In this document: piece after piece, positions 3,833 through 49,606 of the stretch
How positions within the stretch are numbered: the first letter of the stretch is position 1
Layout of the letters: each line of letters opens with the position of its first letter
The notes under the pieces: generated by a model
The model's database searches: none
Told to the model about the DNA's origin: nothing
Seen by the model: only the letters and a program-made list of their open reading frames with translations
Source: Botryosphaeria dothidea
Taxonomy: Eukaryota; Ascomycota; Dothideomycetes; Botryosphaeriales; Botryosphaeriaceae
Length of the DNA: 64,000 nt
Direction of reading: 5' to 3'
Assembly: GCA_011503125.2 (NCBI GenBank)
Contig: WWBZ02000016.1
Location: forward strand, 558,001-622,000
Program-made: the position numbers and the translations under genes

Positions 3833-6800
3833 TTATGCCTTAGCAGGAGGGGGTATCGGCTGCTGAGCTTGCTGTTTAGGCTGCCGTTGATCGCCCAGGC
3901 CCCGTTTTCCGCCACCTCGCGAACGATGGTAATGTGGTTTGCGGTGATGCGAGGCCGCTGCCTCAACGGGAGTTTGCGTGGTGGATGTCGCATCGCCAGT
4001 TGCGGGAGCAGATTTACCGCTCTTCTCCTTCTTCGGCTTTGGGGGTGGCTTGGGAGTGGTATCCTTCTCCTTCGTGTCGTTCGGCCCAGCAGCAGGCCCA
4101 GAGGCAGAGGGCGTATTAGTCTTCAAAGCACCCTCCGCCCCACCGCCCTTCTTCCCACCGCCGGCACCTCCACGACCACTCCCTCTCTTCCCGCCTCTCC
4201 CACCAGAAGCCTTCCGTCCATCCTCCTTCACGGCCTCACTCGCACCCGCAGCACTCTCTCCCTCGCTCTTGCCCTTCTTCACTCCATTCCCCCCACCGCC
4301 AGCACCGCCCTTCTTCCCCTTCCTCTCCGCCCTCTCCCTGTTCCTCGCCTCCTCCTCCATGACCCTCCTGCTCTCCTTATCCCACCACTCCTGAAACTCC
4401 TGCTCCGCCTGAATCTCCTGCAAGCTGCGCTTCGCGCCGGCCTGGGCGATGCTCTCCTTCTCGGCCTGCTGCATGCTCAGGATGTCTGCCATGCTCAGCC
4501 CGACCGATGCCTCGGCGTGCGGCGTCGACTGGATGTGCCGGATGCTCTGCGGAAGCGCCGGCGTCGACGTCGAATTCATGTCGATGGCGAAGCCCTTGCC
4601 CTCGTGGGCAGGCGCCTTGTTCTTGTTCTTGTCAGTGGCGGGCGTTGTTTGCGGGACTGTAGGAGCGGAAGTGGTGGAGGTAGGGGCATCCGCCTTGGCT
4701 TTGGAAGCTGGACCATTGTTGGCTAGTGTTTGGCGCATAGTGAGGTTGGGACGGGTGGTGGTTGGTGGCGAAGGCGTCGCAGCGGCGGGCGAGGTCGAAT
4801 TGATGACATCCTTGAGCGCGACCTTCGCTGCTGGGGGCTTCATTTGCCATGGTGAAGCTGCTGGTGTGCTAGTCTCTTTGACCACCGGGCTTGTGGCAAC
4901 CTGTGATGCCTGCTGCTGCTGCATCTTCTTTCGCTCCTTCTGCGAGAGTTTGGTAGCAGCGAATGAGGAGCCAGTGCCGCGTTCCTCTTTCTTGGCCTGC
5001 GCCGAGAGAGCAAGAGAGATGTTAGAAGGCTGACCTGACGAGGTTTCCGCCATGATAGCGTTCAAATCCAGCTTGTTCGTTAGCAGAGCCGCAGTGCCCC
5101 ATGGCTTATCTGCAGGGCGCGGGATCGGTGTAGCTCTCGAATCCAAAGAAGGCGTGCCGAAGCCCCTGGGCGTTTGAGAAGAAGGACTTGCGATTGCTGA
5201 ATCGGGAACATCCCGCCCGCCAGTGGTTTTGGGAATTTGCCATGGGCTGGACATCGACTCCGCGTCCAGAGAGATATCCTGAACAGGCCCACCCATGGCT
5301 GACGTTGGAGACTTGATCGAACGTTGAGTATCGAGATCGAGCTCGTTGTCCACGTCCACATCGTCATCCATGTCAAACATCAGGTCGGCCACCGAGCCCT
5401 TGCCTTTGAGAGATGGCGCGAGAGACGGACTTTCCTGTACTGCCTTAACGTCTTTGCCTGAACGTCGACGCGCCTTTTGCTGCATCGGCGAAGACGCGAG
5501 GTCATCGTAGCTGCCAGCCTTGAGGGATGATGAGATTCGAGCAGAACTGTCGGTGTATTTGCTTTTCAGCATAATAGCATCGACCTTGGCTCTCTTCCTA
5601 CGGTCTATCTGCTCCGCGAGCTCGGGGTACTTCTCAAACAGCAGTGCTTCGGCATGACCGCTCTTGGCGATAGGGAGGCAGGCCACTTGGTTTTCGCGCA
5701 CGACTTGGTCGAGTTCGAGAATGAGGTCTTCGTCCAGTTCATCGAGCAATCTGTCATCCAGGATTAGTCACTGCCCTTGAATATTCTAGAGCAAAGGCAC
5801 GGCATACCCATTCTGCAGTACAGACTCTAAGCTCAGGCAAATATACTCGAGTCCAGCATCCTTAAATTCAGTCACGGAGCACGGCGAAACGGCGTTGAGC
5901 AGTTGACAGACGTTTCGAACGTTGACTACGCGCATGTCAGAGCCAGTGGCATACAAGTCGATAACGTTTTACTTACCATATCGCCCAACAACCTGCTGAC
6001 AGACCTGCGACAGCCTATCAAGCATCAACTCGTTCGCCACAGATAGGACATCCATGACATGGTCCAAAAAGTCGTTCAGTGCAAGAAACTCTCCAAGGTT
6101 GTCCGAAACGAAATCATCGAAGATCTCACCACCCGCGTCAGCATACAGATGCCTTAGGACCAGATCGAAGATGTGCCGTTCAATATGCTTCAAGTCGATC
6201 CGAATAGCCTCAGAAGAGTCCTCAGACACCTCGCGGCGGCCAGCAAGCCAGAGACCAGCTGCCCGACCCTTGAACATGCCCTCGAAGAAAGGACACCTCC
6301 GCACCATGAGCGAGCTGTGGACTCTGAGCTCACTATCTGCAAGTTCGATTATAACGTCGCCGTCCTCGAAGAAGGCGGGATCTTTGATGCCAAGCTCCAT
6401 GTCCATGGTGAGACACCTTCTCGGTTTAACCATCTGGCGAACAGCCGGTTCAAGCTGCTTGAGCTCGAGACGTGAAGCCAGCTTCATGAGCTCCGTTCTG
6501 ATCTGGCGGTACCTGAACGCCAGTTTTGGATACTGTCGTGTGTAATGCCAAAAGTCTACGATGTCGTCGGTGTAGGCATACAAGACCAGGTCGAACATGG
6601 TGAGTATATCCACGCCCTGAAGGAGGACCACTACACGGCCGCGATCGTCTCGTTCCAAGGAAAGGGCTTCAGGAACCGAGAAGGAACCTAATTGTCGGAA
6701 CTCCGCGAGGCCTTGCCGGAGGACTTTGCTGCGTGCAGCAATTATCCACTGATGAACTGGTATGCGCACATCTGATACAGTAGATCCGACTACCATATCG

Positions 6801-9109
6801 AACGTTTCGTCCGCGTCGTCAACACCAAAAAGGGCATCTTTGAGATCCTGCTCGAAATCTTGCGACTCAAGTACACGCTTCGTAAGGAGCTGAATCTCCG
6901 AAGCTTGGATTGTATCCTCATCCTCGTCATCTTGCAACGTCCAGTCACTGAATGGCAAGAGCGGGAATACATCATCCCAAAGCACTGGCGGATCCACCTG
7001 AACTTGAGTCTTGGTGACATCGCAGTCCTTGCGCACAGCTGCATACGCACCGAAAGCCGAAGCCCTAACAGCGGTCACGCGGGTCAACCCAGGCACGCGA
7101 AGGAACTTGTAGTCTTTTGGCTTGTAATCCCCGGTACCAGAAGCGGTGGCATCCTTGATCTTAGCTCTTTTGACTCTTCTCCACACAGTTCCAGCTTCTG
7201 TTGTCAAGATGACAGAGCCATCCTGGTCGACATCGACGTCACGAGCAGCCATGTAGCCTTTCTTGAGTGACCAGATCCTGTAAGGCTGAGAAAGAGCACC
7301 GCGAATCTTGCTCGGGTTCGTTGTCGACGCCGTGTTGTCTTGGCCGGACTCAGAGCGCTTGCTCACCGAAACCGTGTAGATCTCTCCGTTAGTCGAAAGA
7401 GCGCAGATGTTGTCTCCACCTGCTGTGATTTTACAAATCCTGTTGGGCGTAGTGTCGTATTTCGTAGTCAAGAAACTCTGCTTCAAGAAGTAATTCGAGA
7501 AGCCATCCAATGGAAAAGAGACTTTAGCATATCCGTAATTCGCAAAAACCCAGACCTCATGGTTCTCAAGAAGACACACTGTAGCCCTTTCGATGGCACC
7601 GACTGATTTGATGGGTGAAGAGAAAAGTGAAGCGGCAACTTTGCGAGGAGTGGTTTGGTATTCCAATGATCTCGCGTCGGAGTCGACGATTCCAAGCTGG
7701 CCTTCATTCTTACCAAAGGTATACAAAGAAGTTGCTGTGTGAACAACCGAGTGGATCCTGGAAGCAGCAACGCCGATGACAATCTCTTTCTTCAGTGGCC
7801 CAAAGATCTGGCGGGGCAGGAGTTGAACGGGGTCCTCGTCCTTGAGCGTCTTTGGCAAGCTGTATCCTAATTGGCCGTAGCCATTGTTACCCCAGGAAAA
7901 TATTTCACCTTCATCTGACAGGGCCAGAGAGTGGCTTTGACCGAGCGCAACGGAGATCACTTTCTTCCTGACCAATGCACCACCTTCTATGCAAACAAAT
8001 TGGAAGCGAGTGCTCTCATCACCAGTACCAAGACGGCCACCCGGTCCATGTCCACACATGTAGAGATTTGACTTGGGATCTGTAGTCAACACGGCGGTAT
8101 GGAGCTTCGACATCTGAACGTCTTGGATGAGAAGCGGAGTACTCCTGATTATGGTCGGAAGATCAGACACAGGCATGCTCTGAATGGACGTCAACTGTGG
8201 CAGGTTGCTGATGGAAGAGTCCATATTCGACCAATCCTGTTGCTTGCGTTCCAAATGCTCACGGTAGAATCTGCGGAGGAGATGGTCCGGCCTGCGTAGA
8301 AGGATACGTTCGGGGAACTGCCGGTCATCCTCGTCACCAAAGCCTAAAGTTACGTTCCTGTTGCTGCCGAACGTGAAGAGCTCGTCGCCATGGATATCCA
8401 TAACCGGCGCGAGCTTGCGGCGTGCAGGCCTATCATCTCCGTCGCCACTATCATCATATGCGAAATCCTCATCATCTTCGCCATTCGCATCGGCGCGAGA
8501 GTCCTCGTCCGGCCGCAGTGTCCGGTCTGCAATGGTTGTTGAGAAGAGATCCAGTGGCCCATTCCCCTCTTTGTCCTTTATCTTGATCAACCCTCCGGCA
8601 TGTTGTACCACTCCGCCTGTGCCATGTCCGAGGGCGTCGAGTACGTCGCGATCGATGATGGAGCGTGCAATGGCAACATTGCCGAAGTAAAAGGCGCGAT
8701 GAAGGGCGGTCCAACCGTTCTCAAAGTCTTGGGCGTACAGGTCCGTCAAGGGGTGCTCGAGGAGCGCGGTCGCAAAGGCGAATGCATTATCAGAAGTCGA
8801 AGACGCCGCATGATGCAGAATCGTCAGACCATTCGCATCCTTGGAGTTGATATCGGCGCGCGTCAGCGCTGTCCCAGACCTCGGGGTGCCACCAAAGTCC
8901 CTGCGCGTCCTTGTCATCAACATCGGGGAAGTACCAAGACTTCCGGGACTCCCTATGAAAGCGCTCGCGCTGCCGAATGCTCCAGGCTGCTGCGCGACGG
9001 TATTGGACCTCGGCGCGGGCGGGCGCACATGGAAGGAGGCGCCTTCCAGCAGGTGCCGAAAAGATTCGACATCATCTTCGAGGTAGTATTTCCAGAGATA
9101 GCCGCTCAT
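3833..9109 (-). CDS. Ankyrin / RCC1 / double BTB protein, IBtk-like (S. pombe Btb3-like)
   Basis: Very large protein (1,722 aa) with the architecture of metazoan inhibitor of Bruton tyrosine kinase: ankyrin repeats near residues 90-165 (NGLTILHHAA, NGWTALHRAF), RCC1 beta-propeller repeats about 230-560 (FTFGSNRNVTLGFGD, FSWGNNGYGQLGY, YTFGKNEGQLG), then two BTB/POZ domains about 770-870 and 930-1045, and a long Lys/Ser/Pro-rich low-complexity tail. Proteins of this type act as substrate adaptors for Cullin-3 ubiquitin ligases; that role is inferred here. Exons are 9109-5977, 5925-5808 and 5750-3833. The small middle exon encodes VNVRNVCQLLN and joins the BTB2 end to LLDELDEDLI, matching the usual BTB-BACK continuation, so the two long frames are one gene. 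The tail from about residue 1,100 looks disordered, contains MADILSMQQAE and ends with basic Gly-rich tracts. Start Met (MSGYLWKYYLEDD) is the first in frame. Confidence 0.9.
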
Positions 9110-23876: not shown

Positions 23877-25638
23877 TTATTCAGTCTTCTCGCCTTCTTT
23901 CTCTGCCATATCGCCTAGTTGCGCCCTCAGCCCATCCTTTCCCACCTTCATCGCCCTATTCAGCTCCTCCTCTTCTTCCCTTAGTCTTCCTTTTCCATAC
24001 GCCAGATCACGTCGCTGCCTTCTCTTCTCTTCCTGCACCCTTCGCTCACGCTCAGCCAAGGCCTTTTCTCTTCTCTCACGGTCTTTCTTCTTCCGCTCTG
24101 CTTCCTCGAGATCCTCAGCAGATTGCTCAGAAGTATCTGGAGCCGGGGGTAGCGTCGAAATAAATGCTTCGACCATCGGATCTCTGACCGAAGGTGCCAG
24201 GGAAATGAAGCGCAGATCTCGCAACAATACGGAAGGAAGGTTGGCCAAGGAGGTGGAGCGGTTGAGCTGCGTGACAGGGATGGATTTGAGGAGGGCGGAT
24301 AGGTCGGATTTGCGGGTGCTATCTGGGAGTTTGAGGCGATTGATATGCTCGCGGTACCATTTTTCCCTATCCTTGTCGAGGAGCTTCGTGTTCTTCATTT
24401 CGGGCTCCTTCTTGTATTTCCGGCGGAACTCAGGCCAGTAGAGTTTTGGTGTTGCGTGCTTTTGCAGGAAAGCGAGATAGGGAATGGAAGGGTCCTCCTT
24501 TGCAGCCTTTTCGCGCTGCTCCTTCAGAGCCTGTGCCTTGTCGCGTGACCATTCTTCCCAAGTTTCCTTACGGGCCTTCATGGTGGTTAGGGCAGTGTAA
24601 CGGTCGTCGTTAAGAATAAGGCCTTCCTCAATGATTTTGTCCCAGGTGGAGAAGGGGTTGCAGTTGTAATCGTCCAGCAATTCCTTGAATAACGCTTTGG
24701 AATCCTCTTCGGTCAACACAAGGCCTTCTGAGCCTTCTGGTAGATCCTCGTCACCGTCGCCATACTCGCCTGGATCAAGACCATAATCCTCACCCATGAC
24801 CTGGAGTTGCCATGCAATATCATCCTCGTCGAACTCGACGGCCTCATCTTCGCCATCCTCTCCTGTCTTCTGCCGCTTTGCAGGACCGTCTTCTTCTCCC
24901 TCTTCATCATCCGTGACCTCGACTTCTTCATACTCCTCACTGTCGTAGTCTCTTCGCACTGGTGCAGGCGTCACCGAGGGCCGCTCCCCACTTCCTTCAC
25001 GACCCTCAGCAGCCGCCAACTCAGCAGCCGCAGCCTGCTCGTCCTCGATATCGCTCGGCTCATCACGTTCTCTCCTTTCCTTCTTTTCGCGCTCGATGCG
25101 GTCGAATTCAATCACGCCTTTCATAACATCTGGCGGAAACTTCCAGAAGCTCTCCTTCGTCTCCGGATTGTGCACGAATCTCCGTCCTAGCTTCGTCTTG
25201 ACAAGGACCCAGGGCGCGCAGTCAGGTACAACATACTTGTGCTTGGGACGGTCCTCGGGATGGCGCCTGCGATCTTGATAACCATGGCCACCACGGAAGT
25301 TGCCTCTTCCGCCATGATGAGGTACGGGAAATTGTTGCTGGTATTGCGGAGGGAAGTCTGCCTGGAACGGGGCGCCAGAGAATGCGTTTGAAGGGTACGC
25401 ATGGTTTACGGGTGGTTGCGGTTGAACGGGTTCGGGGAGAGTTGCGGGGCGCTGGTAGGTAGACCTTTTGGTCTCGGCATGGTAGTAGTAGGTGTGACCT
25501 GCGACGGGTGTTAGCTGGGAAGGATGACCACATGAAGTGCAATTGCGCACCTGAGGGAGCCTTGTGCTCTGTCCAGCCCGGAGGCAGCGGCGGCGGGGCA
25601 GAGGCCGCCGGAGCGGGCTTGTAGGTCGATTTGAGCAT
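23877..25638 (-). CDS. WW/FF-domain protein, TCERG1 / S. pombe Dre4-like RNA-processing factor
   Basis: 569 aa from exons 25638-25551 and 25498-23877, joined by a 52-nt intron inside the first WW domain. WW1: LPPGWTEHKAPSGHTYYYHA (residues about 19-50, with STYQRP). WW2-like: PWVLVKTKLGRRFVHNPETK (about 118-150, with SFWKFPPDVM). An acidic region (about 165-250) follows, then FF domains: ALFKELLDDYNCNPFSTWDK...RYTALTTMKARKETWEEW (about 275-330) and a second, YLAFLQKHATPKLYWPEFRR (about 350-410). The C-terminus is a long Arg/Glu coiled coil. This layout is that of factors bridging RNA polymerase II CTD and the spliceosome (TCERG1/CA150, Prp40 relatives). Only two to three FF copies are visible, fewer than in animals. 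It is divergent from PRE9 (240 bp between starts). Confidence 0.85.
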
Positions 25639-39381: not shown

Positions 39382-42300
39382 TCAAGCCTTCTCGCTCATT
39401 CCACTCTTCTCCTCCGTCTGTCCGCCACTCCGTCTAAACTTCGCAAACCGCAGCGAAAATGCAATGAGAACGACCGGCAAGACGCTCACGATCTCGCCCA
39501 GCCCCGCAAACTCGGGCGGGATCCTCAACGCGCCCTTGTCATCCCCAGAGGCCCACTTCCCGTCCGTCTTGACCCACACGAAGGCGCCGGCGGCTAGCAG
39601 TACCGCGAAGAAGTTGTAAATAGCCGCCCATGCGAAGTTGAATTTGACGCGCCTAACCGCTCGGGTCGAGACCTCCATGGCTACCGGCAGCCCGCGCAGG
39701 TCTGGCCGCGCGAGGACGATGTCTGCGGCGCTCTTGGCGATATCGGTGCCACCCGCGATCGAGACGCCAATGTTCGCCTGCGTTAGGGCGACCGCGTCGT
39801 TGGTCCCGTCTCCAAGGAACATGACCACAGCTTCGGGGTGAGCAGATTGCAGCATTGAGACGTAGTCTGCTTTGTCGGCAGGCGAGCAACGAGAGAGCGC
39901 GTGATTGGCGGGGACGTTGAGGACCCGAGCACAGTGTTCGACGCTGCGAGCGTCGTCGCCTGACACGATGGAGATGGCTATGTTACTCGACTGGAGGGTG
40001 GAGACAACGGATGGCGTTTCTGGGCGGAGGACATCGCGTAGGGCGAAGATGGCACAGAGTTCATCATTGATTGTGATGCCAAACAGCGTGTAGTCGAGCG
40101 TGTACTGGTAAATTGGCGAATCTGCAGAAGGGCTTGGGGGAGAGTAGATGCGGCTGGTGAATTTACGGACTTGTGAGGAGGACGTGATGCCTAGCCAGTC
40201 GCAGTTGCCGGCCCTGATGATCAACTCTTCGCTTTCGAGTTTTCCTTCGATGCCACCGCCGACGATCACGGTAATAGTGTCGAAATCGGTGCGGTGACGC
40301 ATTCCCTTTGATTCGATGAAGTCTGCAATTGCTGCTGAGACCGGATGCTTTTGACCGGACACCAAGCCAAGAAGGTGAGGAAGAGTGGAAATGCTGGGTC
40401 TGAGCAAGTAATCTTCAGCAACGACAGACATTTTGCCTTCAGTCAGTGTCCCAGTCTTGTCGAAGACGACATGAGTGACCTTCCTGGTGGTCTCAATAGC
40501 TGACGGGACTCGGAAAATGACACCATGCTTCGCGGCAACTCCGCTAGCAATGATAATGACCATGGGCACCGCAAGTCCAATAGCGCATGGGCAAGAAATG
40601 ATGAGAGTTGCAATAGCATAGCTGATGGCATCCACAATGGCATCGGAATTCTTCTTCTTGTAAACACGAATACCGACGGCCAGCCAGATGATGAAGGTAG
40701 TAAGTGCCAAGGCAAAAATAGTTGGAACAAAGAGGCCAGCAATTTGGTCTGCAAGAGCTTGGACTTTGGGTTTCGTTAGCTCGGCATTTTCAACAAGAGT
40801 GCCGATCTTGCTAATGCTGTTTTCCCAGGCCATGCGGGCAACTGAGACGTCGAGCTGGCCATCTAGGTTCATCGTACCGGCAGTAACCGTGGAATCGATC
40901 CCCTTTGCTACCGGCCTTGATTCCCCTGTCATCATTGACTCGTCCACTTGGGAGCCACCGTAAACAACGACGCCATCAGTTGGTATACGTGTATGCGGAG
41001 GTATGCGGATGATATCGCGACGTTGAAGTAGCCGCACGTCGATCTGTCTGCTCTTAAAGCGATCCTCGGACAGGAGTTGGGCAGTAGGAGCCTGTAAGAT
41101 TCGGATAGACACCGATTCCGTAGCCTTCTGGCGTGCGAGTTCGCCTATGAATCGGCCGAGTCTGATTAGAGTAACCAGCAAGGTACTGGTCTCGAAGAAG
41201 GATCCCTCGGAAAGTGGACTTCCAGTCACGTAGAGCGCAAATGCGATAACAGAGAAGACGTATGCAGTGGTGGTGCTCAGTACGATGAGAAGATCCATGT
41301 CGGCCATCTTGGAATGAAATAGGCTCTTGAATGCTTTAGGATAGAACTCCCAAGCAGACAACTGGACAGCAGTGGCCAGGACAAGGCAAATGGCTTCCTT
41401 GGTAAGCTCGCTGATGGACAATGGCGCCCAAACCAGGACTAGGACTGGGGCGGTGAAGAGGGCTGAGATGAAGAAATACATCTGCTCCCGCTGCAGTTGC
41501 TTTTTCCCAGCAGTCACAGAATCGGGAGGTGGTATTGGTGCCAACTCCGCATTGTCGGGTACCAGAGCCTTCTCCAAGATGTAACGGGGAAATATGACCT
41601 CCGGATAGTACTCAATCCTTACCTTGGTCTTCCCATGTTTATCCAGGTCCGGGAACTGCGTGATGCCTCTCACACCATGTGGAGGGGGGCCTTGAAACAA
41701 TTTGTCTGGGTTTTTGAGGAGAACATCCAGCAACTGCGCCCCTTCTTTGGCCTCTGCAACGTGCTTGAAGCCGAAAGGTGTAGTGCGCCGAAGGTAGTGC
41801 AGTAATTCTTCAAGTGGAATGGCGTTAACATCGACGCAGAACTGAGCTTGGGAAGTGGCCATATCGGTGCGTACATCCTTAATCGAGGGAACCTTCTCCA
41901 GAGCTTTGTGGAGAGATTTCTCGCAGCCGCTGCATGTCATGCCCGAGACGCTGAGCTTGATGTTCTCGTACGCAGGAACGCCTCTCTCGTAGTCAGGGGA
42001 GTCATGCCTCACAAACAGCGCCGTAGGAAGTGATTCTTCCTTTCCGCATGGGCCTGGCTCGCATAGGTGGAGAAGTCCTGATGCTTTTGAGAAGCGATGT
42101 CCGTGTTCATGACTGTGAAGACTGTCGTGGTCGTGATGTCCGTGGCCATGCCTGTGGAAACTGTTGTTGCCATGGTGAGAGCCAATGATGCTTCCGAGCG
42201 TCTTCCTGGTCTTGGCGATGATGGAGTGCTTTGGAAAGCCAGGGTGCATCAAGACGGAGGAGTTGGCGGAGTCCGAGTCCTCGATGGTCCGCTTCTTCAT
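39382..42300 (-). CDS. P1B-type heavy-metal ATPase, copper class (Ccc2/CrpA-like)
   Basis: Single-exon P-type ATPase, 972 aa from the Met at 42300 (ACC context). The frame is open further upstream without an ATG, so a small 5' exon cannot be excluded. N-terminus: His-rich segment about 42-68 (HRHGHGHHDHDS), then one HMA domain with GMTCSGC at about 120-126. Core motifs: TGES in the actuator domain, CPCAIGLAVP (Cu+/Ag+ class) in the membrane, DKTGTLTEG with the phosphorylated Asp, an HP motif (QKHPVSAAI) and GDGTNDAVAL. These define active transport of monovalent copper, to the Golgi or out of the cell. The penultimate helix has N-x6-YN, but the final helix lacks the usual MxxSS copper ligands. 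Which of Ccc2-type, CrpA-type or Pca1-type it is cannot be settled here. Confidence 0.9.
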   Translation of the reverse strand: MKKRTIEDSDSANSSVLMHPGFPKHSIIAKTRKTLGSIIGSHHGNNSFHRHGHGHHDHDSLHSHEHGHRFSKASGLLHLCEPGPCGKEESLPTALFVRHDSPDYERGVPAYENIKLSVSGMTCSGCEKSLHKALEKVPSIKDVRTDMATSQAQFCVDVNAIPLEELLHYLRRTTPFGFKHVAEAKEGAQLLDVLLKNPDKLFQGPPPHGVRGITQFPDLDKHGKTKVRIEYYPEVIFPRYILEKALVPDNAELAPIPPPDSVTAGKKQLQREQMYFFISALFTAPVLVLVWAPLSISELTKEAICLVLATAVQLSAWEFYPKAFKSLFHSKMADMDLLIVLSTTTAYVFSVIAFALYVTGSPLSEGSFFETSTLLVTLIRLGRFIGELARQKATESVSIRILQAPTAQLLSEDRFKSRQIDVRLLQRRDIIRIPPHTRIPTDGVVVYGGSQVDESMMTGESRPVAKGIDSTVTAGTMNLDGQLDVSVARMAWENSISKIGTLVENAELTKPKVQALADQIAGLFVPTIFALALTTFIIWLAVGIRVYKKKNSDAIVDAISYAIATLIISCPCAIGLAVPMVIIIASGVAAKHGVIFRVPSAIETTRKVTHVVFDKTGTLTEGKMSVVAEDYLLRPSISTLPHLLGLVSGQKHPVSAAIADFIESKGMRHRTDFDTITVIVGGGIEGKLESEELIIRAGNCDWLGITSSSQVRKFTSRIYSPPSPSADSPIYQYTLDYTLFGITINDELCAIFALRDVLRPETPSVVSTLQSSNIAISIVSGDDARSVEHCARVLNVPANHALSRCSPADKADYVSMLQSAHPEAVVMFLGDGTNDAVALTQANIGVSIAGGTDIAKSAADIVLARPDLRGLPVAMEVSTRAVRRVKFNFAWAAIYNFFAVLLAAGAFVWVKTDGKWASGDDKGALRIPPEFAGLGEIVSVLPVVLIAFSLRFAKFRRSGGQTEEKSGMSEKA

Positions 42301-43687
42301 GGTGCTTACCCAGGACGGAGTCACTCCGACAGCGTAGTTGGTTCGGGTACGGGCGCTCAAGACCCTGAGAACATCTACAAAAAGGCGAGTCAGTGCTATT
42401 TGTAATCAATATGTGTGGGGAGCTGCTGCACGTACATGGTCTACAAATGCAGAGATGAGGAGACGCTCTGGAGTGTGAGGGAGTGTTCGGAGTGATTCAG
42501 GCAGGATGGGGAGAAGAAGAGGGCGACCGAATCGGAAAGCGTGGACAAGTCAGAGCAGCGGCATATGAATAGCATCCACAGACAAACTGATTGTAGCACA
42601 GGGCCTCGGAATCGGCAACTTGCGGCGGCTGGCAATCCGTTCCTGCCGCACTCGGCAAATTGTCATGCGCGGGGCGACGTGGAAGCTGCCTGACAGCTTG
42701 TGTGCGCGAAGCTTTGGGTGAAGCTCTTACGAACCAGGAAATACGGATCTAAAATAAGGAAAGTTTAAAGTGAAATGCTTGCTGAGGGGCATGAAAAAGG
42801 TTGTTTTCCGGGAGGTCGTTGGCGAAGCCAGCCCGTGCCACCCAAGGCGCAAGCTGAATGTTGTGCGAATGCTCCTACACAATGATTGAATACCCGGCTT
42901 GATCCAGCTTCACCTTGTATGACATTCCAACGTGACAGATTGCAAAGAAATGTCGCGACCCGTAATGCAGGTCGAGTCTCTTGGACACAATAGTCGAACA
43001 AAGGCAAGAATAGTAAGAGTGCATCAGACATCGCGGTATGACTTCAGGACCCCATGAGAAAAGATCTGCATGAGCGCGATCAGGTGCGTGAAAGCGTCAA
43101 ATCTCGTGGCATAGTGAAATAATGCCCAGCCCATCCGGGAGGGTGCTTCAGCGTGACGCGCAGGAAACCGCGAGAGTCATCCATCCAGCGTACCATCTTC
43201 CAGTACTCCCATAGCACCCTGATGGCTCGGATTGCTAGCGCGTGATAGCTGCAGGGTGAATTGGAATTGTCGTGAAGATCGAGGCAAGCCATGGCGTAGG
43301 ATTGGGATGAAGAAGTGAAAGGATGAGGTCCGCAGAGAAGAAAGTGAGGAACGAATCGCCGGGTAGGTTTGACACGGTCAGATGATGGCGCGGAACGCGA
43401 CGACGCCTCCGCCTAACGTCATCACCACCAGCTCCCGTTCCTCCGCTCCACCACCGCCGCTCACTCTCCTGCACGCTCACGCCTAACATCGCATTCCCTT
43501 GCGCTTCTACGGCTATCACTGGAGCTGACACCCGTTGGGCACTTGCGCTACATCACGCGTCAACTCGAATTGCGGGGCCCGCCGCGACCTTTGTTTCGAC
43601 TTCATGAGCCATGTGAACAGCATCCTTTGACCTTTACCCCTCCTACATTTATCACGCCGCGCATTCAGATGATCCCAATCCACAAAA
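42301..43687. promoter_or_regulatory. divergent intergenic region ATPase / RAD4
   Basis: About 1.4 kb between two divergent start codons, carrying both promoters. A possible acceptor site just upstream of the ATPase start (TCTCAG) leaves room for a 5' exon. An ACGCGT hexamer lies at 43555-43560, 128 nt before RAD4. No gene is recognised. Confidence 0.45.
43555..43560. promoter_or_regulatory. MCB-like hexamer upstream of RAD4
   Basis: ACGCGT, the MBF target in yeasts, 128 nt upstream of the start. The hexamer occurs elsewhere in the window too, so this is only suggestive. Confidence 0.2.
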
Positions 43688-46600
43688 ATGGCAAGAGCAA
43701 AGGCACGGGCTGGAAAGACATCCGGCACTCCCAGAGCGCCGCGACGGTCAGCCAGAAACCGGCAACAAGACGATGCGTCAAGCGACCGGGTGCCTGACGT
43801 TTTCCGCGAAATGCTCGCCGAGACAGCCTCTCCCGCTGACGAAGAGCCACCACCTCTGAAGAAGCGCAAGGTCGACGATGTCATTGATCATGCCGTATCG
43901 CAGCCGTCGTCCCGACCAACAGCCGCAACTACAGCAGCGGATCAGGAGGATGATGATGGGCAAGACGACGATGGCCCTAGAGTCCAGACAATCATAGACG
44001 AGTCCGAGACGGATGATAGCGAAATGGACTGGGAAGACGTGGATCTGGAACAGAACCATGTGGACTACCTCCTACAACCGCTCGCAGCGGACCAGGCGGA
44101 AGAGGCTCTTGAGATAGAGATAGGCAAAGATAACACGAAAAACAAGCCGGCAAGAGCCCGTAGAAAAGCGGCGACTGCCGCCGAGAGGGCAGTGAGACTC
44201 CATGTACACAAGATGCATACCTTGTGTCTGCTGTTTAATTCGCACATTCGTAATGCCTGGTGTAACGACAAGCAAGTCCAGGTATGCAATCGCAACGATA
44301 AGCGTGGGCGTGCTGTTCTGACTGCATCTGTAGGCTTCGTTGAAGAGATTCCGAAGCGTGCAAATCAACAACCTTTTCACACCGGATCCCAATAAATCGC
44401 AGTTCCAAGCTGCTAAAGCCTTCTCGGACGGTCTCATGCTTGCGTCAGAGGCGTGGAAAAAATTCAAGATTACATCGTTAGGAATGAGGCGCGCAAGGTG
44501 GGCCCGTGATGTGAGAGAATTGGAAGTCGTATGTTTAGGTCCCAGCATTTGTCCACAGTATTCTGACTGTATCCAGTTCAAAATTCCTGCAGATGCGGAT
44601 CCGGTCATGGAAATATCCGACTTCCGAAAAGCTGCTGTCGCTTTCGAAGGATCAGCGGACACTGGCGCCATGCTGTTTTGTGCATTTCTACGAGCAGCTG
44701 GTATAGAGGCAAGACTGGTCTGCTCGCTGCAACCACTGCCATTTGCCGCTACCGGACTACCAGCCCCAGAGACAATATCCAAGAACGATGACAAGGTGGT
44801 ATACGCACAGAGCAGTGGCGATGACAAAGACACGCCAGCTTCGCAACCTACCCCCCTCAAGAGGATCACAAGAATCGGGCGTCCTGGATTCGCCTCGTCG
44901 TCTGGTCACCACGCAGTGACGCCGTCACCTGTGAAACCAAAAAAGACAATTCCTCATCCCCGATACCCGGTCTACTGGGTCGAGGCTTTCAACGCTCCAC
45001 AACAGAAATGGGTGACGGTGGACCCGATCGCCACCAGAACTATTGGTAAACCGTACCGCCTTGAGCCTCCACTAAGCGACCCGGATGTCTGCATTGCCTA
45101 CGTCGTTACATTTGAAGGCGACGGCGTAGCAAAAGATGTCACTCGCAGGTACACCAAAGCGTACAACGCGAAAACCAGAAAAGCTCGCGTCGAATCGACC
45201 GAAAACGGGGCAAGATGGTGGAGGAAAGCCCTGAAGCTCTTCAGGCGAAGGACAGTTCTGGTAACCAGTCCTCAGAGATGCCAATCCAATCCAGATCCGC
45301 ACTGACACTCTCTCATAGGACAGAGACCAGGTCGAAGATGCCGAGCTCGCCCGCCACGAAGCCCAAGAAGAAATGCCCAAAAACGTCCAAGACTTCAAAG
45401 ACCACCCGTACTACGTCCTTGAGCGACACCTGCGCCACAACGAGGTCATCCACCCGAAACGCGAAATCGGCAAGGTCAACGTCGGCACCGCCGCCAACAC
45501 CAACCTCGAGCCCATCTACCGCCGCCGCGACGTGCACGCGCTCAAGTCCGCCGACAAGTGGTACCGGCTCGGCCGCGAGATCAAGCCCGGCGAGCAGCCC
45601 CTCAAGCACGCCAAACCGCGGCGCGGCCAGCAAAAGCAGTCCTTCGATGAGGAGGAGGGCGAAGAGGACGGCCTCGGAACCGCGCTGTACGCCCCTTTCC
45701 AGACGGAGCTGTACGTCCCGCCCCCGTGCGTCCGCGGCCGCGTACCGCGCAACGCGTTTGGCAACTTGGACGTTCATGTTCCGTCGATGGTGCCGCCGGG
45801 TGGCGTGCACGTTCGCGATAAGCACGCACGCCTCGCTGCACGTCTCCTCGATGTTGACTACGCAGATGCCGTTACGGGCTTCACTTTTCGTGGGAGGCAC
45901 GGCACTGCTGTTGTCGAGGGCGTCGTTGTGGCCGAGGAGAATGGCGATGCCGTAAATGCCGTGCTCGAAGGCTTCCGAGACATCGAGTTGGAAGACGAGC
46001 AGCAGATGAGAAGTAAAGAGGCGCTGCGGATGTGGAAGAAGTTCATGTTGGGGCTACACGTGCTGGAGCGCGTGCAAGAATACGCGACAGCAGACGAGAA
46101 GAAGCAGAAGGAAAAGGAGATAAGGGAGAGGATTGAGGTGGAGGAGAGGGAGCAGGAGGTGGCGGAGCGTGAGGAAGAGATGGCAGGTGGGTTCTTGTTG
46201 GCGGAGAGCGCGGATCAGGCGCCTGCTGAGCCTACAGCGGGAAGAATGGTGGCGGCCGCGGAGCATGATGAGGAGTATTATGACGGCGGTGGAGGATTCT
46301 TGCCTGAGGATGTCGATGAGGGCGTAGATGAAGGGACAAGTGATCTGTTCAAGAGCCGTCTCATGGAGGAGACTCCTCTGAGGCCACGCGTGTCACATCA
46401 GGGGTTTGACGGCGCTGCAGATGAAGATGTGGTGATGGATGGAGGGGGGTTTGTGCCCGAGGAAGAGACTGCTCCAGCTACCGGCCGTTCAGAAGATGGT
46501 GGCGGCTTTCTTCTTGAAGAGGGAGGTGGCTTTGTTCCAGAAGATGGTGGTGGCTTTGTCCCTGAGGAGGGCGGTGGCTTCATCCCCGAAAATGACGGAA

Positions 46601-47034
46601 ACGAAGGCGGTGGTTTCTTGAAAGAGAATAGCCCCCTCCAAACTCTTCATCTTGACTCTGAACATGAACCGGAACCCCCTGCCATTGCTCCCTTAGCAGC
46701 TGAGCCTCAAACCCCAGTGTTGACGCCAGAGGTTACGGAAAAGGACAACACCCCGTTCGAAGAGAAGCGCTCAATCGAGATGCAGGATAGACCATCCGAG
46801 TCAAAAACAACCGACGCATCAGCGCCTCAGCCTCAACAGGACAATGGCGAGCTTCGAACTAATCCTAATGCTGGCGGGGCGCCATCCCAGACGACAGCGC
46901 AACCGCCTTTGGATGGAGCACACGCGAAGGATCGAGGTTCTTCGGATGATGACGTGGACTCGCTACCATCGCATGATCCGGAGGATGAGGATGCGGAGCC
47001 AGAATGGCTTGCGGAGGAAGTTATGAGTGATTGA
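43688..47034 (+). CDS. RAD4: DNA damage recognition protein Rad4 (XPC)
   Basis: Recognises helix-distorting lesions in global-genome nucleotide excision repair, with Rad23. Exons 43688-44281, 44334-44528, 44577-45260 and 45319-47034 give 1,062 aa. Acidic, Lys/Arg-rich N-terminus (about 1-130), then the transglutaminase-like fold: HKMHTLCLLFNSHIRN, then in the C-part DFRKAAVAFEGSADTGAMLFCAFLRAAG, LVCSLQPLPF and YPVYWVEAFN with WVTVDP. BHD1: VTRRYTKAYNAKTRKARVE...PKNVQDFKDHPYYVLERHL. BHD2/BHD3: LYVPPPCVRGRVPRNAFGN and VPPGGVHVRDKHARLAARLLDVDYA. C-terminal to the coiled coil is an acidic tail with repeated GGGF[VLI]PE motifs. The second intron (48 nt) is in frame and stop-free; its removal joins RELEV to FKIPADADP as expected. 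Confidence 0.95.
46282..46629 (+). repeat. GGGF[VLI]xE peptide repeats in the Rad4 tail
   Basis: Seven copies of a GGGF(L/V/I)-x-E unit (GGGFLPE, GGGFVPE, GGGFLLE, GGGFVPE, GGGFVPE, GGGFIPE, GGGFLKE), plus a degenerate one upstream near 46,184 (AGGFLLAE), in an acidic context. Codons vary between copies, so this is a protein-level rather than a recent DNA-level repeat. Confidence 0.85.
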
Positions 47035-48446: not shown

Positions 48447-49606
48447 TCAGATTTCTTCCATGTTGCCGGCAGGCTCCTCGTCCTCGCCTGATTCGTAGCT
48501 GCCGACAGAGCTCATCTCGTCTTCCTCATCACTGTCCTCGTCGGCGTCGTCGGCGGCTTCCTTGGAGGCGTACTTGTTCACATATTCTGCGAACAGGCGT
48601 TAAAACCCAGAGTGGTCCCCATAACACATCAGTGCAACCCATGTCGTGATGTACGCACCTCTAACCTTAGCATCGTAGCTCTTGGGCTCGCGCATTAGCA
48701 AAGCAGCCGCCTCGCCGTTCAAGGGATCCGTAGGGTTCGGGTAGCGCAGTAGCTGAGGAAGGAACACTTCGAAAATGTTGATCATATCGTACATGGGTGA
48801 CCAGGTCTGGTTGATGACATCCAAGCAGACGGATCCGGACCTATTTTCCACACTTCTCAGCAAACGAGTCTTTTCGCAGCAACATAGGTTTCCAGAGACT
48901 TAAAGTCTTCTAGAAGTTCTTGGAGGGAATCTTACAACTCATCGATATTAGGGTGGAAAATGCGGTTCACAAAGCCGATGCTGGGACTTTTGTACGGGTA
49001 CTGATCGGGCAGCTCGACGTGGATCTTCCACAGACCGCCGGCGAAGGGAGCTGCAGATTGCGAACAAATAGTTAACAAAGCAAGGCTCACGGGGAATGTT
49101 CACACACAGGTGCGAGATTCTATATAGAAGGTGTGTTTCCGTACTCTCTTCCGGTCCCTTGAACCGCACGTAGAACTCTTGCCTGAACATTCGTCAGTCG
49201 TCTGCGCGCGAGCAGATATGGTGGCTTGTGTGGAGACGGACACTGCGAAATAGTCAGCACACAAACACAGCGAATATCAAGGTACGAGTTTGCTTACTGT
49301 TATCATTGACCAGAGTGACCTCGTAGTCGCTCATCAGCCTGCGCTCCGCGTTAGTACACTCGGCATGCCTCCGTAGTGGCGGGAGTGTGCCCTGAAAGTA
49401 ATTCCACATACATCCTGCCAGCGTGTCAGCAGCAGAAACCTCATACAACGTTACGCCTCTCCAGCTAGTGTCACGTACTTCATGACCTATATTCACGGCG
49501 CGCAAAGTGCTCCGTCAGCCCCTTGTTTCTTATTTCTCCAAGCTCACAGATCCAGTGTTTATGTGTGACCTACATCCGTCTCAATCCTCCGCTTAGGGCT
49601 GCTCAT
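48447..49606 (-). CDS. UBC8: ubiquitin-conjugating enzyme E2, Ubc8/UBE2H type, with micro-exons
   Basis: E2 enzyme; the budding-yeast homologue acts in degradation of fructose-1,6-bisphosphatase with the GID/CTLH ligase. Nine coding exons give 186 aa: 49606-49574, 49486-49479, 49414-49412, 49338-49298, 49242, 49182-49145, 49050-48936, 48840-48659, 48586-48447. [50 protein letters not shown], the HPN motif in FHPNID, catalytic Cys85 in [13 protein letters not shown], and [19 protein letters not shown] are all family features. The tail is acidic ([12 protein letters not shown]...), as in Ubc8. Without the 3-nt and 1-nt exons the protein loses one residue in the DVMK-LMSD helix and shifts frame before QEFYV. 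Every intron has a plausible acceptor and branch point. Confidence 0.93.
49242..49242 (-). other. UBC8: 1-nt micro-exon of UBC8 (single T)
   Basis: Two introns of 55 nt (49297-49243) and 59 nt (49241-49183) can be drawn, each with GT...AG ends and a CTGAC branch point, leaving a single T. Joined, A+T+G gives Met in NDN-M-QEF, the residue found in yeast Ubc8. One uninterrupted intron from 49297 to 49183 would instead shift the frame. Confidence 0.7.
49412..49414 (-). other. UBC8: 3-nt micro-exon of UBC8
   Basis: The trinucleotide GAT lies between GGCAG (with CTGAC branch point upstream) and a GTATGT donor. It completes a Lys codon and supplies ATG-type Met, giving DVMK-M-LMSD, which has the same length as yeast Ubc8 and human UBE2H; omission would delete one residue. 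The following intron (73 nt) has TACTAAC before its CAG. Confidence 0.72.
49479..49486 (-). other. UBC8: 8-nt micro-exon of UBC8
   Basis: Encodes V-M and two bases of a Lys codon. Flanked by an upstream intron of 87 nt (GTAGGT donor) and a downstream intron of 64 nt (GTACGT donor, CTGAC branch point). Needed for the DVMK motif. Confidence 0.8.

Follow-up and report, generated by a model that had tools for sequence, protein, structure and literature searches.

The window analysed here, a stretch of 64,000 nucleotides (nt) from Botryosphaeria dothidea (contig WWBZ02000016.1, positions 558,001 to 622,000), carries on its minus strand (49606..48447) an intact gene for a ubiquitin-conjugating enzyme (E2) of the UBC8/UBE2H type, in which a single T at position 49242 appears to form an exon of its own. 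The gene comprises nine coding exons, which after splicing give 561 nt including the stop codon and encode a protein of 186 residues in an uninterrupted frame. The product exhibits one Pfam domain, UQ_con (PF00179, E=1.1e-39), and its closest solved relatives are Ubc8 and UBE2H, matched over almost the whole length: the E2-24 kDa chain 8pmq_E (E=1.7e-70), which we take to be yeast Ubc8, followed by 8pjn_2 (1.8e-66) and 2z5d_A (6.1e-66); the chains 2onu_A and 1yf9_A, which bear unspecific names, come next, and E2s named otherwise start at 2.4e-27. The domain and the best structural match agree with an earlier note on this DNA, made from its letters without database searches, which had called the gene a UBC8 homologue. 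In yeast, Ubc8 serves the GID ligase as its E2, and the Cys in the SGSVCLDV stretch of the product is presumably the active site. Searched at the DNA level, the 51.7-Mb genome gave this gene as the single match, with no second UBC8 copy found.

The coding piece ending in ..AAC A (49298) and the one beginning with G CAA GAG (49182) are separated by 115 nt. Taken as one intron these break the frame: direct joining of exons 4 and 6 without the T leads to a stop after 68 residues, and a stop also results at codon 43 when intron 4 or both introns are kept and at codon 89 when intron 5 is kept. T49242 divides the stretch into introns of 55 nt (GTAAGC..CAG) and 59 nt (GTCCGT..CAG), both with GT-AG ends and each with a CTGAC motif followed by 10 nt to the intron end; with the T included the frame is restored, the codon becomes Met29 and the protein is intact. 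The base is thus flanked by AG and GT, each belonging to a complete intron, and it is needed both for the frame and for a conserved Met. With the outer ends kept in place and a minimum intron length of 38 nt, the T is the sole middle exon that keeps the frame. The earlier note had placed a Met at this position of yeast Ubc8, and 8pmq_E indeed reads NDSMQEF; its numbering of the exons around the site as 4–6 likewise fits the nine-exon model. Its observation of a single-T exon is confirmed, and the uninterrupted protein with the family Met, the ordinary introns and the homolog pattern described below support a one-nucleotide exon as by far the best reading of the sequence.

Splice-site quality was judged against reference introns from a simple coding-frame search over 264 kb of the same contig, which returned 124 candidates, 69 of them 45–80 nt long; one of these, in the UBC8 gene itself, was excluded from training, and 68 remained. 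The search demanded that an intron begin like a donor, end in YAG and contain a branch motif, and the reference set is not free of these assumptions. The main length peak of the reference introns lies at ~50–65 nt. Against the 68 introns of 45–80 nt, the donor of intron 4 stands at the 66th and that of intron 5 at the 25th percentile, with the acceptors at the 53rd and 78th percentile, respectively: in length, splice sites and branch motif alike, introns 4 and 5 are unexceptional for this genome. Alternative readings were enumerated with the ends free to shift as far as 15 nt and with GC donors admitted, provided that the frame was kept and no stop arose. This gave nine single-intron and 15 two-intron readings, amongst which the one with the T has the top two-intron score (24.4 vs 18.5 for the next) and alone of all 24 produces NDN-M-QEF. 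In 20,000 dinucleotide shuffles of the interior, with the first 6 and last 16 nt fixed, AG-T-GT with halves of at least 45 nt arose 773 times (3.9%) and AG-N-GT 1676 times; shuffles that equalled or exceeded the observed site scores and branch motifs numbered 0 of 20,000 with T and one with any base. A genomic control comprised four spans with one full match, perhaps the UBC8 gene itself, and was too small for use.

The public B. dothidea protein P0034 (GTA08_BOTSDO01946) could be reproduced letter for letter from the window. Its model uses the 8-nt and 3-nt exons that precede the site, and its next exon starts exactly at T49242: a separate annotation has thus set the first acceptor at the same place as the earlier note. 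From there the model continues across intron 5 and enters exon 6 out of frame (49242-49165, minus strand), giving 26 residues after Met29 in place of 13, until a donor at 49164 mends the frame. The P0034 annotation failed only at the one-base exon.

Three protein searches (the best 120 of 5,725, of 6,043 and of 5,600 matches) yielded 238 different homologs, and the counts that follow apply to the matches listed. A transcript-like set (n=53) was sorted by hand from jgi, lgn, ena or merc entries without organism name; these lie on contigs of at most 7.3 kb (one has no contig data), most of 0.9–2 kb, and have uninterrupted frames, some partial at the start. The remaining 185 organism-named proteins were taken as genome models, and 176 of these are Pezizomycotina once 6 Lipomyces, 1 Saitoella and 2 plant proteins, which we set aside by name, are subtracted. 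One protein, named as a Quercus suber E2 (P0001), has 302 residues with much of the UBC domain in tandem repeat. Met stands at the site in all 53 transcript-like homologs, in all 6 Lipomyces models and in the Saitoella model. A plain Met between the NDN-like and QEF-like pieces was found in 18 of the 176 Pezizomycotina models, including P0160, which the pattern search had missed and which was added later; these 18 may represent correct splicing or intron loss. Relatives' DNA was also sought in scans of viral contigs and of prokaryote genome contigs, where no relative was confirmed.

The 185 genome models fall into plain Met (24), S plus one residue before QEF (23), K followed by FY/FF (21), other S-starting forms (42), Met plus a TNN-codon residue plus Val (15), R (6), other forms (31) and forms without anchor (23). 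The 23 S-plus-one models look as when the donor had been shifted four bases to the second GT of GTNNGT, and the 21 K-FY/FF models as when the acceptor had been shifted five bases to GCAAG; these two shifts are the cheapest mends of a one-base shortfall. The 42 other S-starting models look as from read-through into the first intron, with the exception of P0075 (Lasiodiplodia theobromae), which reads SKSSMC, close to the SKSSTC obtained in B. dothidea as the frame after excision of the whole 115-nt stretch. In 20 models the Met is kept and non-QEF residues follow; 19 of these continue with a TNN-codon residue and a G-starting codon and fit the arrangement with the T, because A-T-GTNNG requires a TNN codon and then a G-starting one. 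The four-base repair was also found in models from Tuber and Drepanopeziza, which we take to be Pezizomycetes and Leotiomycetes, respectively; this hints at a wider spread, although such a repair reveals the shortfall alone and not the T. The region of the 3-nt exon is intact in 56 of the 185 genome models, reads as if skipped in 52, reads on into the next intron in 11 and takes other forms in 66.

The intron structure of relatives was deduced from protein models by treating their residues as degenerate codons and searching for the pattern A/GTNNG..YAG/T/GTNNG..YAG/G with introns of at least 42 nt. Eight models have a read-through of 30 residues or more, from S to R, between the NDN and QEF pieces, and seven of these admit exactly one split, with CTNAC possible near both intron ends in every case: Parastagonospora nodorum (47/55 nt), Aspergillus niger (56/67 nt), Fusarium flagelliforme (47/52 nt, two models), F. 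coffeatum (47/52 nt) and F. pseudograminearum (49/56 nt, two models with identical insert). The seven comprise Dothideomycetes, Sordariomycetes and Eurotiomycetes, and residue-shuffled controls for them reached such a split, together with the two branch motifs, at rates of 0.3 to 4.4%. Amongst the models with Met..R before QEF, seven of eight fit T/GTNNG..YAG/G, and six of these also allow CTNAC. The Macrophomina model P0111 translates the first intron as far as ..LLTISQ and then has S, which by eye fits a T with an immediate donor. The comparison with related fungi for a conserved double intron, which the earlier note had suggested, thus finds indirect support in the decoded protein models, namely in 19 of the 20 Met-then-on models and in seven of the eight read-through cases but not in the eighth, P0182 (Claviceps africana). 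The exon of one T seems to be a shared Pezizomycotina feature and not a local oddity.

Several points weigh against this interpretation. P0182, as mentioned, gave no fit to the pattern, and the pattern itself was fixed after the first examples had been viewed by eye; moreover, the entries from three species of Fusarium do not count as independent, which leaves about four separate cases. P0056, the Met..R model without fit, is also the sole one of the 20 Met-then-on models that does not suit A-T-GTNNG, and P0216 has no possible CTNAC in the right place. The relatives' introns derive from back-translation of mis-spliced protein models rather than from DNA, and the transcript status of the 53 proteins was deduced, by hand sorting, from their short contigs and unbroken frames. 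In six genome models the site reads NDN-R-QEF/SEF, as one would expect if those species had just one in-frame intron there, and the N. tetraspora model reads NDN-KAM-QEF; these may be real losses or further artefacts. Lastly, the donor of intron 5 is just average at its 25th percentile.

Other ways of reading the 115 nt have to be set against these observations. An intron of 84 nt, whose donor GTTTGT falls within the proposed intron 4 so that 31 nt of the latter become coding, is in frame, has GT-AG ends with CTGAC near its end and reaches the top score of the nine single-intron readings (11.2 compared with 24.4 for the two introns, sums over two and four sites that are not directly comparable). 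We consider it very improbable: it would insert 11 foreign residues in place of the conserved Met, where all 53 transcript-like homologs have Met alone, and the public model of the same genome does not use it. An intron of 120 nt, whose acceptor GGCAAG lies five bases into exon 6 and gives NDN-K-FYVRF, is likewise in frame (score 6.5) and is the form in which the 21 K-FY/FF models of relatives are written. However, it bypasses a CAG that has a well-placed branch motif in favour of an AAG, loses M-Q-E, occurs in none of the 53 transcript-like homologs and resembles a frame repair by gene finders, and we give it next to no credence.

A one-base assembly error in a gene that really has one in-frame intron would remove the need for any such exon, and P0034, which stems from a contig of identical length, provides no independent reading of the DNA in this respect. 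Yet relatives share the one-base shortfall, as in SKSSMC of the L. theobromae model, and the seven fitting read-through models, from three classes, have A/GT and AG/G ends that leave the codon one base short; the error would furthermore have to adjoin a fitting AG-T-GT, and we regard this explanation as extremely unlikely. Spliceosomal twin introns (stwintrons), whose parts are removed in turn with nothing kept between them, are present in filamentous ascomycetes and likewise need stepwise splicing, as described in an extract of PMC6616335. For the 115 nt of UBC8 we rejected this explanation as extremely unlikely: each of the two introns has its own complete donor, branch motif and acceptor, none of them split by the neighbouring intron, and excision of all 115 nt would break the frame.

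In our judgement T49242 is therefore very probably a constitutive one-nucleotide exon of UBC8, inherited together with its two introns, which would be removed stepwise. From the sequence we infer that in B. dothidea introns 4 and 5 would be excised in two separate ordinary splicing reactions, each short intron being recognised across itself; such intron definition is the ascomycete mode of splicing for introns of this size according to the extract of PMC6616335. With introns recognised across themselves, the exon would need no recognition of its own, and one base would be enough: the lone T would be joined between A and G to give the ATG of Met29. The intron 4 acceptor overlaps with the intron 5 donor (CAG/T/GTCCGT), which makes joint occupancy by two spliceosomes improbable, hence the assumption of stepwise removal. 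Intron 4 perhaps leaves first: the score of the intron 5 donor rises from 5.21 to 6.12 after its removal, which is a weak hint in favour of this order. Its origin probably goes back at least as far as the ancestor shared by Dothideomycetes, Eurotiomycetes and Sordariomycetes, common descent being more likely than several independent gains of the T exon. Gene finders, which seldom write so small an exon, would have patched the frame in other ways. The features of the gene are collected in Table 1.

Table 1. Features of the UBC8 gene in the window, with positions counted from the first letter of the stretch.
Feature	Position	Strand	Basis or remark
UBC8/UBE2H-type E2 gene, exons of 33, 8, 3, 41, 1, 38, 115, 182 and 140 nt	48447..49606	-	spliced translation
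Exon 1	49574..49606	-	spliced translation
Exon 2, 8-nt micro-exon GTCATGAA	49479..49486	-	also in public model P0034
Exon 3, 3-nt micro-exon GAT, Met15 with adjoining bases	49412..49414	-	also in public model P0034
Exon 4, ending in NDN-A	49298..49338	-	spliced translation
Intron 4, 55 nt, GTAAGC..CAG	49243..49297	-	splice-site scoring
Branch-point motif CTGAC of intron 4, 10 nt to intron end	49253..49257	-	
Exon 5, single T (A on the plus strand), middle base of Met29	49242..49242	-	
Intron 5, 59 nt, GTCCGT..CAG	49183..49241	-	fully translated in public protein P0034
Branch-point motif CTGAC of intron 5, 10 nt to intron end	49193..49197	-	
Exon 6, starting with G-CAA-GAG	49145..49182	-	
Exon 7	48936..49050	-	spliced translation
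Exon 8, contains SGSVCLDV	48659..48840	-	spliced translation, Pfam
Exon 9, acidic tail and stop	48447..48586	-	spliced translation

Further along the same gene, intron 7 (48841-48935, minus strand, 95 nt) has no recognisable CTNAC-type branch motif at the usual place, and its TAG acceptor stands at the 9th percentile. Two UQ_con matches on different contigs, G000:C36:2476333 and G000:C78:1590658, have identical scores and frame lengths (796 residues), possibly as a duplicated stretch in the assembly. Elsewhere in the window, frames were found for an RCC1-ankyrin-BTB protein (5972-9109, minus strand), for a heavy-metal P-type ATPase with a PCA1-type domain (39385-42357, minus strand) and for a protein with Rad4 beta-hairpin domains 1-3 (45373-47031, plus strand). 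An open frame at 23880-25550 (minus strand) exhibits WW and FF domains and is TCERG1-like by a weak match; TCERG1-like WW/FF proteins link transcription and splicing.

One-nucleotide exons have been described before, and the comparisons below hold as far as the extracts of the cited papers go. The closest case is that of CYP621A, where such an exon was reported from 20 Fusarium orthologs with RNA reads in two species (PMC12940212). As in UBC8, a nuclear gene of filamentous ascomycetes has a single base between two short introns, the base restores the frame and a conserved motif, and gene models have missed it; in contrast, the base in CYP621A is a G in the middle of a Gly codon of a P450 reported from Fusarium, whilst that in UBC8 is a T in a Met codon and the pattern appears to extend over three classes or more. 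In Arabidopsis and land plants generally, APC11 shares with UBC8 a one-nucleotide exon on which the frame depends and which reference annotations lack; the APC11 exon is conserved across a large clade, as that of UBC8 seems to be (PMC4674806, PMC8831610), but this is a plant gene, the exon was established with complementary DNA and reporter constructs and it lies in a 422-nt stretch once called one intron (PMC4674806). VPS55 of land plants also has a one-nucleotide micro-exon, present in many lineages and absent from reference annotations; unlike that of UBC8 it belongs to an unrelated gene, is alternatively spliced in some plants and was confirmed by RNA sequencing and reverse transcription PCR (PMC8831610). 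One exon base between two introns is also known from mitochondrial cox1 of placozoans (PMC5436844) and rnl of fungi (PMC12308204), although there the introns are organellar group I/II introns and not spliceosomal. The stwintrons of Pezizomycotina resemble the UBC8 pair in that two short U2 introns at one place are spliced stepwise by intron definition, and differ in that one intron lies within a splice element of its partner and no base between them is kept (PMC6616335).

A paper on a plant micro-exon database, in the extract available, names APC11 as the sole 1-nt case (PMC12409088), and the extract of a 2024 paper calls functional micro-exons previously undescribed in filamentous fungi (PMC11121469). 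Among the matches listed from the open-licence literature there was no report of a one-nucleotide exon in UBC8, queries with the enzyme and gene names matching no paper, which is no proof of absence. Thus the kind of exon is already known; what appears to be new is the gene in which it lies and the depth to which it reaches, with Dothideomycetes, Eurotiomycetes and Sordariomycetes all represented.

One-nucleotide exons mark the lower limit of what the spliceosome can handle, and few emerged from the literature searched. If shared across classes in a conserved ubiquitin enzyme, the T exon of UBC8 suggests that such exons can last for very long; it would explain the absence of the plain junction from 158 of the 176 Pezizomycotina genome models listed, and many fungal gene models would need correction. 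The arrangement lends itself to testing in laboratory species for which RNA data exist, and the gene offers a ready system for studying the order in which two overlapping splice sites are used. A far more tentative idea, to which we attach little probability, is that the T exon has been kept since the early Pezizomycotina as a splicing checkpoint: a slip at the overlapping sites would lead to a frameshift and an early stop, such that the amount of this E2 would track the fidelity or speed of the spliceosome under differing conditions. If this were true, UBC8 would hold a very old fungal spliceosomal exon of one nucleotide and a natural test of how two spliceosomes share a single base.
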